Shown piece by piece: positions 3,945-21,405 of a stretch of 21,405 nt of DNA. Positions within the stretch are counted from its first letter, which is position 1, and every line of letters begins with the position of its first letter. A model generated the notes under the pieces. That model was not told the DNA's origin. It did not search any database and saw only the letters and a list, made by a program, of their open reading frames with translations. Source of the stretch: a virus; the IMG/VR virus record IMGVR_UViG_3300049855_000437, positions 1 to 21,405 of that record; one strand, given 5' to 3'. A program made the translations under genes and the position numbers.

Positions 3945-4358
3945 GCTTACTGTTACGTCCTGGGTGGCCCCGGCCGATGTGACGCGGAAGATTGCGCTCA
4001 CGTTGGTGCCAATAGGCAGGTTGGTGACCGTGAAGGTCGTGGTAGCCGCCGAGGGAGACGTGGCGGTGATCAACGTCGAACCACTGACTCGCGTCCAAGC
4101 AAACGAGCCATCGCCACCTGAGGCCGTAACGCTAGTCAAGGTAGCAAAAGTGCGGGTAGCTGGTGAATTAGAAGCCGGGCTATTGGTGAAAGTGCGGCTG
4201 ACATTTCCTGTAGAAACAGAAAGAGACGACCATACAGTCACCCAAGCCCCGCTTACTCGACGCTTTACTGTAGATACCCCAACCCAAGCACCGCCGGAGC
4301 GGCGCTTGACGGACGCGATGTCGACGAAGGAGCCGGAGGACTTGCGCTTGAAGGCCAT
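3921..4358 (-). CDS. Tail-associated Ig-like protein with N-terminal KRR-GAWV repeats
   Basis: A 145-residue protein of two parts. Residues 1-45 carry three copies of a 14-16 residue repeat: FKRKSSGSFVDIAS, VKRRSGGAWVGVST, VKRRVSGAWVTVWS, each a basic K-R-[KR] turn followed by [GS]-[AS]-[FW]-V. Similar small repeats occur at the ends of tail fibre genes in many phages and prophages and look like short beta-strand modules. Residues about 46-145 form a Ser/Thr-rich beta sandwich of Ig or PKD type (ATRTFATLTSVTASGGDGSF, then VSAIFRVTSAGATQDVTVSM). It starts 3 bases after the knob-domain fibre gene, so it probably belongs to the same fibre assembly, as an accessory or decoration protein. No enzymatic motif. 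Confidence 0.65.
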   Translation of the reverse strand: MAFKRKSSGSFVDIASVKRRSGGAWVGVSTVKRRVSGAWVTVWSSLSVSTGNVSRTFTNSPASNSPATRTFATLTSVTASGGDGSFAWTRVSGSTLITATSPSAATTTFTVTNLPIGTNVSAIFRVTSAGATQDVTVSMTYESGL

Positions 4359-5990: not shown

Positions 5991-8900
5991 TAAGACTCCG
6001 TTGACACAACTGAAGTGCGCTGCGACTGGCTGTTTTGTACATTCATCGTATAAGGCCAGCCTGAGGGGCTAGTCACTACAACACGATAATTGAAGTTACC
6101 TGTACCTGCCAGGTTGTCAGTAAATGTTGCACTTCCTGCCAAGTTGAAATCATGAGAATAGCCAGAACCAGGCTCGAAACCTTCAGAGACCCGGTTGCCT
6201 GTTAAAGCCACAGAGCCTACGTTAGTCCACGCACCTCCGTTGTAGCTACGTTCCAAAGTAATCGTGGCAGACAAAGTACCGTTACCAAGATCTGTCGCAT
6301 GAAAACCTGCGTTTCGATAGCTCAAGCTATACGTGACAATTTTTGGCCCACCGTTGGTTCCAAAAGCTCCGGTTTCAACAATAGCGGAACCGCTTAGTGT
6401 GCTGCTTGTCACCGCATTTTTAAGCACACCTGTAGACAAGCTGCCACCAAAGTAAGCACCTCCTGTGCGGGTTAGGTACATATCAGCCTGAGCACGATTG
6501 CAGAGGTTGATGGCCATTTTCGGGCCGTACCACTGCACGAATTCGTTGGCCACACCAAAGCCCACACCTTGAACCAGAATGTGGGTACCAGAATCAAGAA
6601 TGATTCGGCCATTGCCGAAGTACATGTCGTTGGCAAACTCGGTGTTACCGCCACTGCTGATGGAAAACAGAGTGCGCGGGGACTGTCCTGGCGTGACAAT
6701 CCGGAAGTTGTCTGCGATGAAAGTAGTGGTAGCCACGCTGCCGTTGTTGACCGACGACACACCCGAGATGTACCCGTTCACGTCGAGGCTCACGCCCCAG
6801 CGTGCTTCCAGAGCAGTTGCCCTACCCTGTACTGTTGTCATCTGAGTGGACAGCGTACTGGTCGCTGATGCTTGAGCAGTGATATTGCCCTCAGCCGTCG
6901 TCATCCGAGAGGTGACGTTAGTGATGGCACTGGCCTGGGACGTATTGGTGTTCTCGGTGTTGGTCACCCGAGTCGTCAAGCTGCTCAACGCACTGGCCGT
7001 TGCCGCCACACCTGTCGTACCGTTGTTGACGGTGTTTTCCAAAGACGTGATCGCACTACCCTGCGACGTATTCACACCTTCTGCAGCAGTCACACGAGTC
7101 GTGAGCGACGAGATCGCACTGGCATTACCAGTGATCCGCGTGTCGGTCATGTCGATCCAGGTAGTGCCGTTCCAGCGCCAGGGCCGGTTACCGTCGTCCG
7201 TGTCGAGCCAAAAGTCGCCGACGTTCTCAGCAGTCGGCTGAGTCGGTTGGGCAAACACCCGGTTCTTGTTGTTCGGGCGCAGCACCCAAACACCACTTGT
7301 CAGAGTGTAGATGTTGCCGGTGCTGGCCTGGATCCAGAGATCATTCTCCGTGCGCCCAGCGGTTGCTGGCGCAGTCTCAGATACCGTAGTTCGGTTGGCG
7401 CTGGTGACGGAGTTCTGCAGGGCAGTGATCGCACTGCCCTGGGAAACAATTGACGCTTCCGTCGCAGTGACTCGCGTATCCAGCGCAGCAATAGCTGCGC
7501 CCGAACCACCCGTATCCAAGTCGAGAGCAGTCACCTGCGCCTGGAGCGAGGTCAGGGCACTGCCCTGGGAAGTGTTCACACCCTCAGCTGCCGTGACCCG
7601 AGTGGTCAAGCTCTGTACAGCATTCGCTGCTGCCAAGGTATCAGCTTCGACATCCACGATCCGCGTGGAAAGCTCATTGGTGGTGGCAACCAAGGCGGCA
7701 TTGTTGTTTGCGCTGGTGATCATTTCATTGATCAGCGCAGACTCCACAAGCCGCAAGTTCCCTTCCAAGGCACCCATCGCGCCTGCCGTATTCGGCACCC
7801 AAGCGCTGGGGCCAGCCTGGTCAACCCAGGCCTGCTCAACCATCGGGCGGAACAAAGCACCTTGCGTGATGAAGTCTCCATCACCAGTCACCGTCAGGTA
7901 GAGGCGCAACTTTACTGCGCCTGCCGAAGCGAGAAACTTCACCCAGGTCCGGGTGTACCCACTGAAATCAGTGCTGGTCGTGGTATTGAAAGTCGGAGGG
8001 CAAACACCTTGCCCAACGATAGAGCCAGCCGAGTCAAATAGCTTGTACGACAGCACTACCGTGCCGTTGTCCACACACGGATAGCCGCTCACAATGTAGT
8101 GACGGTTGCCAATCACGAGCACAGGCGAGGACTCGACAATAATCTGACCCAGTGGAGTCGGTGCTCCGACTACTTCCAGGCAGTTCACGTCAGTCGGCAT
8201 GTTGAGCGTGTTCACCGTAAGAAGCGTGTTCGCCCAATCTTCCTCTGCAACGGTGATAGCCCAGCCGCTTGCCCCAACGGCAAAGTCTGCATTGGGCAGA
8301 AGGTTGCCGCTGCCACCGATCACCGAGCCCAAAACGGTCGTCTGCTGCGATTGCGCGGTGAGATCGTTACCGATTCCCGTCACCGTAGTCTGCAGCGTAT
8401 TCAGCGCGGTAGCGTTGGCCGTCACATTGGTGTTCGTGTCGGTCAAGCTGCTCGACAAGGCATCAATCGAGGCTGCCTGGATCGTGATCGCGTTTTCCGC
8501 AGTCGTTATGCTGGCCGTGTGGCCAGCAATTGTGCTGTTCGCAGCCTGAAGTCCAGAAATGGTGCTGGCCAGGCTTTGGTTGATCGAATCCAAGCTCTGA
8601 TCTACCAGCGTCGCATTCTGCTCAGTCACCGTCAGGCGCTGAAGCGCGGTGGTGAGGTTGGTCTGGTTCGTCTCCAGGCCTGCCTGAATGTTTGAGTAGT
8701 CAGTCTGCAGACCACTGATCGAAGTCTGTTGGCTAACTCGGTACTGATCCAGTTGATTGACGACAATGCTGATGGCCGTCAAATCATTGTTGGTCGTGGT
8801 CAGATCACTCTGAAGGCTTGCCTCTAACGTTGCGAGCGCAGCGTTGAGCTCGTCCAGCAAGACCACGTTTTCAGGCAGAACCCCGATCTCGAGAAGGGTT

Positions 8901-9865: not shown

Positions 9866-11431
9866 TCACCTCGCCAGATAATTGGCCAAAGCGTACTGGT
9901 CTTCGCCCCAGTTATCCATCTCGTCATTGGCCGGAACGGCAAACTGCTGGGCCGGCAGAATCGGGGTAACCAGGTACAGCATGGAGACCGTATCAAGAAC
10001 GTCGTCGTTCTTGGACTTGAGGCCCTTTTTGGTAGCCAGGCGGATTTCGTTCCAGAACTCGATGATCCAGGGGTGGTCGGGCATATCGTTCGGGATCATG
10101 ATTTTGCCGGCCTTTATCAGGGGCACGACTTCGTTCATTCGCTGGAGCTTGGAGCTGACGACCCGGATTCCGGGCTTGGTGCCGTTGCCAAAGCTGAGCA
10201 GGTTGAAGAACTTGGACCGGGTGGTCATCTCCTTGATGATCCAGGTGATGAAACCTCCCTGCTGGCCAGTGACTTCGCAGCCCACTCCCATGAGAGCCGA
10301 GGGGTACTTCTCCGCAGTCTCAAAAATCTGGTCCACTGTTTTGTCTATCAGCTGCTTTCTGCAATAGCCGCCTATGAAGCGAAAGTTGCCCTCGAAGTCT
10401 ACTGCCCAGTTCGAGACGACGTTGAAGTCGTTCTTTTTCTCTTCGGTGGTGGCAAAGTCAGTGGTGGTGTACACCGTGTACGCAGGCCGACTTGCCAACC
10501 ACTCAGCTCGGTTGTAGGTAGTGATCTGATCGTCAGTGACCAAACGTTCTTCGTCACTGGTCAAGCGCAACATCATTTCCTGATCAAAGGCTGCACCAGT
10601 CAGGTCTGCCGTCTTCTTCACCGCCTCGTAAGTGAAGCGATCTGGCCAAGACGAACGAAACTCTTCCTTGCTGCAGGGCCACTGCTCACACACCGGCCAC
10701 ACGTTGACATGCCAGTTACCGCTCTCAACAGCCTCGCACATGATGTCCGACTTGTTGAAAGGCGTACCGTTGAGAATAATTTTGCGCTTTTTCGGATCCA
10801 GCGCTGGGACGATACCCTTGTAGATGCTGTTCCTGATCTTGCCCATCACCGCAGGACTGGCGGCGTCTTCGTCGCTTTTGATCAAATCGTCCATCACCAC
10901 CAATTGAGGGCGATGGCTGTAGATTTTGGTGCCTCGAATACCAGACTGCGCACCGTACATTCGAGTACCGAACTGAGTACCGTCTTTTCGCCGATATTCG
11001 ATGAAATTCTCGGTAAAATTGGCCTCTGGGATCCAGTATTGCAGAAAGGGACTCTGGTTGTATTTTGTCTCGACGTTGGAACGGAAGTTCTTCACACCGT
11101 TGTCCATGGCATCCGAGACATAAAGCATGCCGTTGACGGTACCAAAACCATCAATCTCGCCAAACACTCCGATGTAGAGATTGAGGTACTCACCGAACAG
11201 CACGGTTTTACCCAAGCCTCGGTGGCACAGGTTGGCGATGTTCTCTTTGAGACCAGCCAGGCCATCCAGCATCACGAGATGCACTTCGGGGGTGGCATCC
11301 GGTTCGGATGTGCCCACCATCTTGATGAAGTTGATGAACTTCAGGCTGAACTTGCTGGGCTGGTACCCGACTCGCGGCCCGTAGCTGATCTCGTTGAGGT
11401 AGTCGTCGAGCTCCTTGAGCTGGTTATTCAC
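9866..11431 (-). CDS. terL: Terminase large subunit (packaging ATPase-nuclease)
   Basis: This protein drives DNA into the prohead and cuts concatemers. Counted from GTG at 11431 (521 residues), Walker A is CHRGLGKT at 69-76, Walker B is LVVMDD at 177-182, and the coupling motif NGTPF lies at about 221-225. The RNase-H-like nuclease has TTDFATT (Asp325), CEVTGQQGGF (Glu386) and KNDDVLD (Asp476/477). The family, with RGLGKT and EVTGQQGGF, is one I recall from podovirus-like phages. The GTG overlaps the small-terminase stop by eight bases and has a GAGACGG ribosome site; another GTG at 11452 has its Shine-Dalgarno-like bases too close to use. A 586-residue open frame on the opposite strand is a shadow. 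Confidence 0.95.
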   Translation of the reverse strand: MNNQLKELDDYLNEISYGPRVGYQPSKFSLKFINFIKMVGTSEPDATPEVHLVMLDGLAGLKENIANLCHRGLGKTVLFGEYLNLYIGVFGEIDGFGTVNGMLYVSDAMDNGVKNFRSNVETKYNQSPFLQYWIPEANFTENFIEYRRKDGTQFGTRMYGAQSGIRGTKIYSHRPQLVVMDDLIKSDEDAASPAVMGKIRNSIYKGIVPALDPKKRKIILNGTPFNKSDIMCEAVESGNWHVNVWPVCEQWPCSKEEFRSSWPDRFTYEAVKKTADLTGAAFDQEMMLRLTSDEERLVTDDQITTYNRAEWLASRPAYTVYTTTDFATTEEKKNDFNVVSNWAVDFEGNFRFIGGYCRKQLIDKTVDQIFETAEKYPSALMGVGCEVTGQQGGFITWIIKEMTTRSKFFNLLSFGNGTKPGIRVVSSKLQRMNEVVPLIKAGKIMIPNDMPDHPWIIEFWNEIRLATKKGLKSKNDDVLDTVSMLYLVTPILPAQQFAVPANDEMDNWGEDQYALANYLAR

Positions 11432-12173: not shown

Positions 12174-12548
12174 TCAACCAGCCTTCGAGGTCTGGTTCCT
12201 ACCGCGGCCTTTGGCCTTCATGTCGGCCATGTTCTCGTCATGGGTGCCGAGGAACAGGTGGTTGGGGTGGAGGCACTTGGGGTTGTCGCAGCGGTGGCAG
12301 ACAAACTTCCCGTCGATCGGGCCGTGGAAGGCCTCGTAGGAGGCCCTGTGGGTGTAGGCGAAGCCACCCTTGGACTTGAAGCAGCCGTAGCCGGTGCGGT
12401 GCATCACGCCCTGCCACTCCCAGCACCCGGTCTCAGTCTGGAGCACCCGTTTGAGCAAAAACCCCTGGATGGAGCTGAGCGAGCCATCCATCAGCAGATC
12501 CAGCAGGGTGTTGGCCTGGGCCCGGCAATAGAGCTCGTCGTAGTCCAT
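12174..12548 (-). CDS. HNH endonuclease
   Basis: A 124-residue protein from ATG at 12548, which overlaps the previous stop (TGATG). After an N-terminal helical part, residues 42-75 (GCWEWQGVMHRTGYGCFKSK onward) carry the Cys-Trp-Glu-Trp start seen in phage HNH_3-type nucleases, then HRASYEAFHGPI. The core VCHRCDNPKCLHPNHLFLGT (83-102) shows the likely zinc cysteines C84, C87 and C92 and catalytic or metal histidines H85, H94 and H97, followed by DENMADMKAKGR. The gene lies just upstream of the small terminase. HNH proteins in this position support cos-site cutting in HK97-like phages, but free-standing homing nucleases also occur here. A basic tail (RGRNQTSK) may bind DNA. Confidence 0.9.
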   Translation of the reverse strand: MDYDELYCRAQANTLLDLLMDGSLSSIQGFLLKRVLQTETGCWEWQGVMHRTGYGCFKSKGGFAYTHRASYEAFHGPIDGKFVCHRCDNPKCLHPNHLFLGTHDENMADMKAKGRGRNQTSKAG

Positions 12549-12955
12549 CACTTCTGCCAGCGGGCCAGCTTCTCTCGCAGCTGCTCCCCGACGCCCTGCC
12601 TCGCACCGCTGGCCAAGGCCAGGTACTGGCGAATGTCCGGACGAGAAGTAGTGCGGTCGTTGAAGCCCTCACCCGGCAACACCTGTTCGCTCAGGGAGCC
12701 CAAGGCTTCTTTCACCGGCTTAGGGCCATGGAAGTAGGCCAGCTTCGCCAGGTCGTAGGGCACGGAGGCGATGGCTGCACCCAGAGCTCTCGACGGCATG
12801 GTCCGGCCCTGGTGGAATCGGTCATCCAGAGCCAGGCGCTGCTGCATCTGGGGGTCGCCAGCGTACTGCTGGCGTAGCTGTTTAGTCTCGACCTCGCCCT
12901 GTCGAGGGGTATAGCTCAGCCCTTGCAGCAGTTGGTTGAGCGTCACCGGATTCAT
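12548..12955 (-). CDS. Soluble protein of unknown function
   Basis: A 135-residue protein that I do not recognise. It starts MNPVTLNQLLQGLSYTPRQG, has a Gln- and Arg-rich helical stretch (about residues 15-55: KQLRQQYAGDPQMQQRLALD), a small hydrophobic patch (ALGAAIASVPYDLAKLAYF, about 57-75) too short and broken to be a sure membrane segment, and a helical C-terminus (LREKLARWQK). The start overlaps the upstream stop as ATGA and its stop overlaps the HNH start, so it is translationally coupled to both. It could be a small virion, packaging or lysis accessory protein; nothing decides between these. Confidence 0.65.
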   Translation of the reverse strand: MNPVTLNQLLQGLSYTPRQGEVETKQLRQQYAGDPQMQQRLALDDRFHQGRTMPSRALGAAIASVPYDLAKLAYFHGPKPVKEALGSLSEQVLPGEGFNDRTTSRPDIRQYLALASGARQGVGEQLREKLARWQK

Positions 12956-19008: not shown

Positions 19009-19239
19009 CTATTCAGGCCCACAAAGCGACTTGTCGAGGTACATGTGTCCTCCTTGGTCATAGACGATCACCCCCTTGGTCTCCAGCTCTTTGAAGCTTC
19101 GGGAGACCTGGGCAGGAGTGAGGCTCAATCTTTGGGCAATCCCCTTCCGGCTCATGCTGACCAGAGCAGGGTGCATCCGGGACAGCATGTCCTCCAGCAC
19201 TCGGGCCGTCGTCTCGGTGATTTTGATGTCCTCGTTCAT
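19009..19239 (-). CDS. Small winged-helix DNA-binding protein (second of a pair)
   Basis: A 76-residue protein starting at an ATG that overlaps the upstream stop (ATGA), with AGGTGGTG just before it. It is nearly a bare winged helix-turn-helix: helix 1 TARVLEDMLSRMHP, then MSRKGIAQRLSLTPAQVSRS with recognition helix AQVSRSFKELETKG, and a wing VIVYDQGGHMYLDKSL. The final HMYLDKSLCGPE matches in outline the HMNVNLCYRGS of the larger protein encoded just before it, so the two look like paralogues, this one lacking the N-terminal part. Without an obvious effector domain it could be a repressor, co-repressor or competitor of its partner. Confidence 0.75.
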   Translation of the reverse strand: MNEDIKITETTARVLEDMLSRMHPALVSMSRKGIAQRLSLTPAQVSRSFKELETKGVIVYDQGGHMYLDKSLCGPE

Positions 19240-19733
19240 ACGTTCACCACCTTGGTGATCCCCAGATGCTTCAAGGCCTTGTACCCCTGCTCCAACCGCT
19301 CTCGCCCATCCCCCTTCACCAGATCCTTGGGACTCCCCCGGTAGCAGAGGTTCACGTTCATGTGCTCGTTGCCCGACCGATCCAGCAACAGAATGCCTGC
19401 CCCTCGCAGCTCCTTCCAGGCCTTGCTGATGGCCTGCCGGCTCACCCCCAGGTCGATCGCCATCCCGCTCTGGCTGGTGTCCACGATGTTCCCCTGGCTC
19501 GTCAGTTCCATGATCCGGTGCAGCACCCTTAGGGCCGTCCCCCCCAGCTGGCTGTGCATCACCACCTTGTTCAGGTTCTTGCTGAAGGTGAAGCTGAACT
19601 CCTCGGAGAACTGCACCCGCTTCTCCACCACCCCCACGTGCCCATCCTTCCCAAACACTGCAACATGGTCTCGCCCGGTGCTCTCCCCCCGGTTTTTGAG
19701 GTGTTGGGCGATTTCTCCCACTGTTTTGGCCAT
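19236..19733 (-). CDS. RepL-like winged-helix protein, initiator or regulator
   Basis: A 165-residue protein with AGAGGG before its ATG. Residues about 25-60 (DHVAVFGKDGHVGVVEKRVQ and on) are a short beta start. Then come the helical core NKVVMHSQLGGTALRVLHRI, a winged helix (QSGMAIDLGVSRQAISKAWK, residues about 98-117), a wing with GILLLDRSGNEHMNVNLCYR (123-142) and a basic tail. The order, and the end M-x-x-N-x-x-x-x-RG, resembles RepL replication proteins of small Gram-positive plasmids, and also generic phage regulators with this fold. It faces a 538-base region full of palindromes and repeats. I am sure of the DNA-binding fold, not of replication versus regulation. Confidence 0.75.
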   Translation of the reverse strand: MAKTVGEIAQHLKNRGESTGRDHVAVFGKDGHVGVVEKRVQFSEEFSFTFSKNLNKVVMHSQLGGTALRVLHRIMELTSQGNIVDTSQSGMAIDLGVSRQAISKAWKELRGAGILLLDRSGNEHMNVNLCYRGSPKDLVKGDGRERLEQGYKALKHLGITKVVNV

Positions 19734-19783
19734 GAAAGAACCCTCTGAATAAGTAAGTAGAGATCAGCCATAAGTCGCTGATT

Positions 19784-19811
19784 CTCATAATAATTTTTTC
19801 CTTCTTGTCAA
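19784..19811 (-). promoter_or_regulatory. Candidate leftward promoter for the winged-helix pair
   Basis: On the minus strand, a perfect -35 TTGACA (19811-19806) is followed after 16 bases by TATGAG (19789-19784), four of six matches to the -10 consensus. The predicted start near 19777 gives a leader of about 44 bases to the ATG at 19733. The 9-2-9 palindrome lies directly upstream of the -35 box, where a regulator could act. Confidence 0.5.
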
Positions 19812-19885
19812 CCTGTGCTTTACACCTGTGTAAAGCCTGAGTTGACAGAATTCGAAGCCAGTGTAACCCATTGGTTGACAAAATT
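19804..19885. repeat. Three GTTGACA-core repeats around the palindrome
   Basis: GTTGACAGAATT (19841-19852) and GTTGACAAAATT (19874-19885) are direct repeats with 11 of 12 bases identical and start 33 bases apart, about three DNA turns. A third core lies inverted at 19806-19812; its nine bases TTGTCAACC (19805-19813) are the exact complement of GGTTGACAA at 19873-19881. They could be iterons, operators or simply -35 boxes; the two rightward copies lack good -10 boxes at normal spacing. Confidence 0.55.
19817..19836. promoter_or_regulatory. Perfect 20-bp palindrome, candidate operator
   Basis: GCTTTACAC and GTGTAAAGC are exact reverse complements separated by CT. Arm length and two-fold symmetry fit binding of a dimeric winged-helix protein such as the one encoded at 19236-19733. 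It sits between the leftward -35 box and a rightward TTGACA. Confidence 0.65.
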
Positions 19886-20135
19886 ACCAGTTATTCCTCT
19901 ACCTTCCGTCGGCTCACCCCCTCCGGGACGGCGGCTCCGCTGGCGCTCCGCCTTGTCCCTACGGGGCTCGCCTCCGGCCTGATAGTGAGCACGCTCACGA
20001 TCCAGGCAGAACAAGGCCTGTGTGTGTGGCCGCTCCGCGGCACAAGAGCGTGAGGCTGCCGGATATCACCGGCCCATCCCCTTAGGAAAGCATCCCCCTC
20101 AAAATTTTTTTATCAGGGAGGGTTGAGGGTTTCCT

Positions 20136-20163
20136 ACACCGGTACACCAAACACCAAAACACC
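20136..20163. repeat. Four phased ACACC repeats
   Basis: ACACC occurs at 20136, 20144, 20151 and 20159, with steps of 8, 7 and 8 bases. The array lies between the CCCTCAA/TTGAGGG inverted repeat and the C7G6 block. Its short, regular form resembles a small protein-binding or iteron array. Confidence 0.5.
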
Positions 20164-20228
20164 CCCCCGGGGGGTTCGATTCGTGTGTGGGTCTCCATAC
20201 CCCCACGTTGCGCTGCGGCGGCGTCTAT

Positions 20229-20250
20229 GGATGGGCAGCCCTGCTCATCC
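20229..20250 (+). other. Hairpin in the leader of the 20272 gene
   Basis: GGATGGGCA (20229-20237) can pair with TGCTCATCC (20242-20250) across a GCCC loop, nine pairs with one G-U. It ends ten bases before the AGGAG ribosome site of the next gene, so it may stabilise the transcript or tune translation. Confidence 0.4.
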
Positions 20251-20271
20251 TCACCTACTAGGAGTAATGAA

Positions 20272-20571
20272 ATGAGCGACAACAACTTCGGCACCAACCA
20301 GGAGGCTGCGGCTTCCTCGCGCAAGAGCAAGAGCACCGAGTCCTTCGGCATCGTCACCGTCGAGCTGCCCAATGGCCAGCGCCTGGACGGCTATACCCTG
20401 CTGTCGGCCAAGAACGCCGAGAAGCTGGGCATCAGCCGCACCAAGCTGGAAGAGTTGGCGAAGGCGCAGGCCAAGGCCATCATCGGTACGGAAGGCGGTG
20501 TGCGTCTGCACATCCAGTTCGGTGACCGCGCTCCGGTCCTGGCTGCACCGGTCGAAATGACCTTCGTGTAA
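20272..20571 (+). CDS. Small protein of unknown function, first rightward gene
   Basis: A 99-residue protein with a strong AGGAG seven bases before the ATG; the open frame extends upstream to 20185 but without a ribosome site there. It starts with a polar, probably disordered segment (MSDNNFGTNQEAAASSRKSK). Next is a beta segment (FGIVTVELPNGQRLDGYTLL), a helix (NAEKLGISRTKLEELAKAQA) and a beta end (GGVRLHIQFGDRAPVLAAPV). No membrane segment or catalytic motif. I do not recognise it. The strong ribosome site and its place at the head of the rightward block suggest an abundant early product. Confidence 0.75.
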   Translation: MSDNNFGTNQEAAASSRKSKSTESFGIVTVELPNGQRLDGYTLLSAKNAEKLGISRTKLEELAKAQAKAIIGTEGGVRLHIQFGDRAPVLAAPVEMTFV

Positions 20572-21256: not shown

Positions 21257-21405
21257 ATGGCTGGCATCTTCAAGACCATCGGTTCCACCCTCTCTGCTGT
21301 CGATACCGTTGCAGCCAGTGGCTCGCGCCGCATTGCTGTCTGGGCTCGGGAGCAGGAGACGCAGACCAAGTACCGTCACGTCAGTGCGATGACGCGCATC
21401 AAGAC
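21257..21405 (+). CDS. Unknown protein, N-terminal part (cut by window edge)
   Basis: An open frame with AAGGA before ATG at 21257 that runs to the window edge, giving 49 complete codons. It begins MAGIFKTIGSTLSAVDTVAA and continues SGSRRIAVWAREQETQTKYR, an amphipathic N-terminal helix followed by a charged helix. No family can be assigned from this fragment. It continues the rightward block of small genes. Confidence 0.65.
   Translation, partial: MAGIFKTIGSTLSAVDTVAASGSRRIAVWAREQETQTKYRHVSAMTRIK

Follow-up and report, generated by a model that had tools for sequence, protein, structure and literature searches.

A probable genome terminus between the late and early genes of an N4-like phage fragment

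Gene layout and conservation of the gap

The window analyzed here, a whole virus record of 21,405 bp, holds a gene-free gap at positions 19734 to 20271. From the sequence and the list of open reading frames, a leftward gene ends at 19733 and the next ATG stands at 20272; no credible coding sequence was found in the gap, which is overlapped just by short mechanical ORFs of 60 to 96 amino acids. A first-pass annotation had described this uncoded stretch as gene-free, which we confirm, and had correctly located its C7G6 block, T7 run, ACACC array and palindrome. Its remark that such long uncoded stretches are rare in phage genomes does not apply at this place: in RG-2014 about 446 bp of the equivalent junction are uncoded, and in Pokken 813 bp. 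The sole close relative that we found, hereafter L002 (IMGVR_UViG_3300046615_000598; TerL 84% identical), carries the same genes on either side of the same gap. The following elements border or occupy the gap; the palindrome, the inverted repeat and the C7G6 block come from direct reading.

19236-19733, minus strand: RepL-like winged-helix gene (165 aa), bordering the junction on the late (right-end) side
19805-19880: operator-like repeats of putative function, TTGTCAAC at 19805-19812 (minus strand) and GTTGACA at 19841-19847 and 19874-19880 (plus strand)
19904-19926: TTCCGTCGGCTCACCCCCTCCGG, identical in L002 and forming an imperfect direct repeat with 19965-19982
19965-19982: GGCTCGCCTCCGGCCTGA, identical in L002
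19985-19998: palindrome GTGAGC-AC-GCTCAC
20029-20041, plus strand: hairpin GCCGC-TCC-GCGGC, with a TNC triloop on a stem of 5 bp, shaped like N4 vRNAP promoters
20096-20102 and 20123-20129: inverted repeat CCCTCAA/TTGAGGG, flanking a T7 run at 20105-20111
20136, 20144, 20151 and 20159: copies of ACACC, at spacings of 8, 7 and 8
20162-20174: C7G6 block
20252-20265, plus strand: ribosome-binding region CACCTACTAGGAGT, identical in L002
20272-20571, plus strand: first rightward gene, in early position (99 aa), known from the window phage and L002 only

Judged from its proteins and gene order, the window is a piece of an N4-like phage of the Schitoviridae. In protein comparisons, its TerL is 48 to 50% identical to that of N4-like phages over more than 93% of the TerL length; it is of the N4 gp68 type and adjoins a gp69-type gene (phrog_38, phrog_2109), and the portal matches SU10/phrog_1216. 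Late genes run leftward and small or early genes rightward, the same polarity as in N4, S6, RG-2014 and Pokken. The record is apparently a fragment, and the genes for the giant virion RNA polymerase and the two-subunit RNAPII would fall outside it. The first rightward gene (20272) has no recognizable likeness to gp1; a gp1-like start (MAGIFKTIGSTLSAVDTV) occurs at 21257, in a sequence for which no family was matched.

Two further genes of the window deserve mention. A family 19 glycoside hydrolase gene of the endolysin type lies on the plus strand amid the leftward late genes (1646-2272), and the gene beside the gp69-like gene contains an HNH-endonuclease-like sequence (12174-12551; counterpart in L002 at 8202-8588).

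Comparison of the two gaps shows 368 identical positions out of 513 aligned (72%), and nine stretches of 10 bases or more agree without a mismatch. Four-fold sites are 48% identical between window and L002 in TerL, 45% in the gp69-like gene and 42% in the RepL-like gene. The gap is under selection and therefore a functional segment, though not on account of its hairpins. Searches for DNA similarity, of the gap against phages and of the L002 copy against plasmids, returned nothing or a single chance hit at E = 3. As a separate observation, GATATC (mostly as GGATATC) occurs at 20062, 20615, 20635 and 21224, positions within the junction and early region, is absent from the rest of the 21.4 kb, and is found twice in the L002 junction (9781, 9799).

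Likeness to the left ends of N4-like genomes

A run of seven to nine C residues starts at genome position 29 to 33 in N4, S6, LUZ7, LIT1, RG-2014, Pokken and contig 2974723488, seven records that begin at a mapped, predicted or repeat-defined end. The ends of LUZ7 and LIT1 were determined by direct sequencing (according to the record notes) and those of RG-2014 by Sanger run-off (PMC5735904); the left end of Pokken is a PhageTerm prediction, that of S6 is defined by a 397-bp repeat, and contig 2974723488 begins and ends with the same exact 404-bp repeat, its C-run being at position 31. The left end of N4 itself is described as precise, and several right ends exist (PMC5557969). In most of these left ends, the lead-in to the C-run is rich in ACACC. 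The C7 run of the window sits between the leftward late and the rightward early genes, ahead of the first rightward gene, and its distance to the first ATG is 110 bp, versus 71 to 181 bp in relatives. The metagenomic relatives L005, L006, L008 and L011 also have a C7 run, placed about 70 to 80 bases ahead of an ATG in L005, L008 and L011. Alignment of the window with these ends identifies the following elements.

20090-20112: T-run element GCATCCCCCTCAAAATTTTTTTA, upstream of the left end, from comparison with relatives
20122-20132: cut-proximal sequence GTTGAGGGTTT, from comparison with Pokken, X3_15 and L045
20133 (uncertainty about 20130-20134), plus strand: predicted left end and start of the direct terminal repeat, from the position of the C-run in relatives
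20134-20161, plus strand: ACACC array, in which CTACACC..TACACCAAACACC agrees at 20 of 22 positions with the terminus of Rhizobium phage X3_15
20162-20168, plus strand: C7 run, common to the left ends of most Schitoviridae examined
20196-20210, plus strand: CATACCCCCACGTTG, an element of the ACCCC(C)AC type, with counterparts CTACCCCACCTTGT in N4/LIT1 and CACCCCCATGTTG in JWAlpha
20225-20232, plus strand: CTATGGAT, TATGGA-like, counterpart of the early P1 start region (TTATGGAC in N4, TTATGGAT in V13)

The putative cut site was placed by sequence comparison. Pokken has TGAGGGTTT directly before its PhageTerm-predicted left end, and X3_15 and L045 have TGTAGGGTTC at the cut-proximal place; on the strength of this match, the end of the window phage would fall at 20133, which makes 30 the position of the C-run. 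CTACACCCTTACACCAAACACCCCCCCCC precedes the first early gene in the circular record of Rhizobium phage X3_15, and the window has CTACACCGGTACACCAAACACCAAAACACCCCCCC; the 22-base match between the two scores 34, a value reached by none of 200 shuffled windows. Upstream, the AATTTTT(T) run ends 71, 73, 71 and 73 bp ahead of the C-run in N4, RG-2014, V13 and contig 2974723488, respectively, while the T-run of both the window and L002 ends 50 bp ahead of it, about two helical turns closer. The T-run element is not present in all of the relatives compared. Downstream of the C-run, the window shows in order the ACCCC(C)AC element, the TATGGA sequence and a TAGGAG ribosome site. The composite pattern C7..TGGA..GGAG..ATG, devised after the window was seen and fitting just 5 of 9 known ends, has a single match in the window (20162-20274), against 0.005 per shuffled window.

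The motif of ACACC lead-in and C-run is not diagnostic when taken alone. Two scans of a viral collection for ACACC/C7 yielded 66 loci, just 6 of them clearly N4-like; a loose form of the pattern matched 62 stretches, mostly unrelated and many from one repeated family, with an N4-like minority that includes N4 itself and both ends of contig 2974723488. A profile of the C-run flanks ranked the 20162 site best in the window, yet not above all shuffles. Furthermore, the JWAlpha and EE36 records start 5 and 2 bp ahead of the C-run, respectively, and the C7 run is absent from the records of Presley and VBP32. As the ACACC/C7 motif is not specific, it needs its context, and the identification of a terminus, made by sequence comparison, rests on the kind of phage, the place, and the order and spacing of the elements taken together.

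Origin, promoter and RNA readings of the gap

The RepL-like gene next to the gap raises the question of an origin. The gap might mainly be a plasmid-type origin dependent on RepL, with the protein binding the GTTGACA/GATGACT repeats or the GC-rich direct repeats and initiating replication. The window protein matches Pfam RepL above the cut-off (4.4e-5; 23.5 bits versus 20.3), distant homologues sit on enterobacterial plasmids of 2.7 to 2.8 kb (the one plasmid inspected has just one other annotated gene), and the arrangement of the repeats is retained in L002, where alignment shows copies of the GATGACT type, despite the change in repeat sequence. However, the match is weak and overlaps Crp-type HTH families, and that of the L002 homologue (49% identical, the only relative found in viral and bacterial contigs) stays below the cut-off at 19.4 bits. 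The repeats, furthermore, overlap a -35-like TTGACA and resemble operators, and the elements shared with phage termini would be left unexplained. We consider this reading unlikely: a weak RepL match together with operator-like repeats suggests a regulator at least as much as an origin initiator. It is also rather improbable that the junction combines a terminase signal common to the family (T-run, GGGTTT cut site, ACACC array and C-run) with a RepL-controlled origin on its right-end flank; if this dual junction were true, an N4-like phage could persist, or start replication, as a plasmid. Two overlapping leftward genes of the window (19009-19733), the RepL-like gene and a Crp-type winged-helix gene (76 aa), make an unusual pair in an N4-like phage.

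The gap could also be a divergent promoter and regulatory region and nothing else, with host-type promoters driving the leftward genes and the 20029 hairpin acting as the rightward early promoter. The genes are indeed divergent, TTGACA boxes are present, and a scan of both strands found no other TNC hairpin in the 21.4 kb, against a chance level of about 1.0 for the whole window and 0.01 for the plus strand of the gap; L002 keeps the stem, with a TAC loop. Like the N4 vRNAP hairpin promoters P1 to P3 (PMC4496689, PMC3715699, PMC12633501), the window hairpin combines a 5-bp stem with a C-TNC-G triloop, and the same scan of the first 6 kb of N4 found exactly three hairpins, at the places of P1, P2 and P3. 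However, the 20029 hairpin lies on the opposite side of the C-run from those of N4, LUZ7, JWAlpha and Pokken: it precedes the predicted end by 92 bp and the gene by 231 bp, whereas 38 to 56 bp separate the end of the first such hairpin from gene 1 in N4, LUZ7, EE36 and JWAlpha. The ACACC array, C7 run, T-run and cut-proximal sequence, common to the ends of other genera, would again find no explanation, and we regard a promoter-only gap as quite unlikely.

Since the comparison puts the genome end downstream of this hairpin, we demoted it as a vRNAP promoter; it may be a chance product of GC-rich sequence, a relocated promoter or a part of the terminase signal. A TNC hairpin stands after the C-run in N4, JWAlpha and Pokken, whereas the window has none there: no C-TNC-G hairpin of 4 to 7 bp was found between the C-run and the first gene, and upstream of the TATGGA-like sequence at 20225-20232 the expected P1 hairpin does not occur in canonical form. 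In one of the metagenomic relatives, L005, the early region has two copies of one identical hairpin (AGACACTTCGTGTCT) on the minus strand (370-384 and 4003-4017), both of them promising candidate vRNAP promoters.

A structured regulatory RNA or riboswitch-like leader, an option raised in the first-pass annotation, is very improbable: the gap is GC-rich with several possible stems, and the minus strand of 19905-20054 folds better than shuffles in the window (z -2.49), but the same piece scores +0.92 in L002, scans of the entire window gave no Rfam match at the gathering score and no tRNA, and the stems are not conserved. On the plus strand, predicted RNA energies against shuffles gave z -0.47 for 19905-20054 and -0.88 for 20132-20271 in the window, and +1.55 and -1.31 for the equivalent pieces of L002; each piece tested fell inside the shuffle range in at least one of the two phages. 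By alignment, the 19985 palindrome is absent from L002, the CCCTCAA/TTGAGGG arms do not pair there, and most stems of the window are missing.

The proposed junction and known systems

The gap is very probably the terminus, or concatemer junction, of an N4-like phage genome, lying between late and early genes. Among the options of the first-pass annotation, the packaging signal finds good support in the resemblance to mapped N4-like ends, and the structured RNA finds none. Replicated genomes would be joined head to tail inside the cell, and terminase would cut a fixed left end at about 20133, right after GAGGGTTT and 29 bp ahead of the C7 run. From 20133 rightward, a few hundred bases, starting with the ACACC array and the C7 run, would form the direct terminal repeat present at both packaged ends; the repeats of relatives measure 340 to 660 bp. 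The segment 19734-20132, with the T-run and the GC-rich block, would come from the right-hand part of the genome and probably contribute to the signal that terminase recognizes. The contig of L002 breaks at 10270, 384 bp after the C-run begins, where a terminal repeat could plausibly have its right edge.

In N4, the left end enters first and bears the early promoters (PMC4496689), and the left end of the window phage would accordingly carry the first early leader: 20133-20271 probably doubles as the 5' leader of the first early gene and its transcript. Because the base at which assemblers start such genomes is random (PMC5557969), a contig may cross the junction; that of the window spans it once and would hold a single copy of the repeat. 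Close to the right end of Pokken (L034), we noted a Tad2-like (Thoeris anti-defence) gene at 1607-1930 on the minus strand.

The feature appears largely ordinary and largely explained, as a fresh example of an N4-like genome terminus that had gone unassigned. An unexplained gap becomes a predicted genome end. We found no description of a shared end signature of N4-like phages in the literature searched; the signature is seemingly common to many of them and would be useful for locating genome ends in metagenomic contigs spanning the junction. To our knowledge, the signal at which terminase cuts has not been defined in Schitoviridae, and the elements listed above provide concrete candidate sites for its recognition. 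The missing hairpin after the C-run is of interest too.

The proposed end resembles the left ends of the Schitoviridae (N4, LUZ7, LIT1, RG-2014, Pokken, X3_15) in its run of seven to nine C residues about 30 bp inside the end, mostly with an ACACC lead-in, followed by an ACCCCAC-like element, a TATGGA-like start, a ribosome-binding site and the first rightward gene; several of these ends also have the upstream T-run. It differs from them in the spacing of the T-run (50 instead of 71 to 73 bp), in the lack of a TNC hairpin after the C-run, in a first gene that is not gp1-like, and in having, on the side of the right end, a conserved GC-rich block and a RepL-like gene. The concatemer junction of T7-type phages offers a broader parallel, as a gene-free terminal repeat that terminase cuts.
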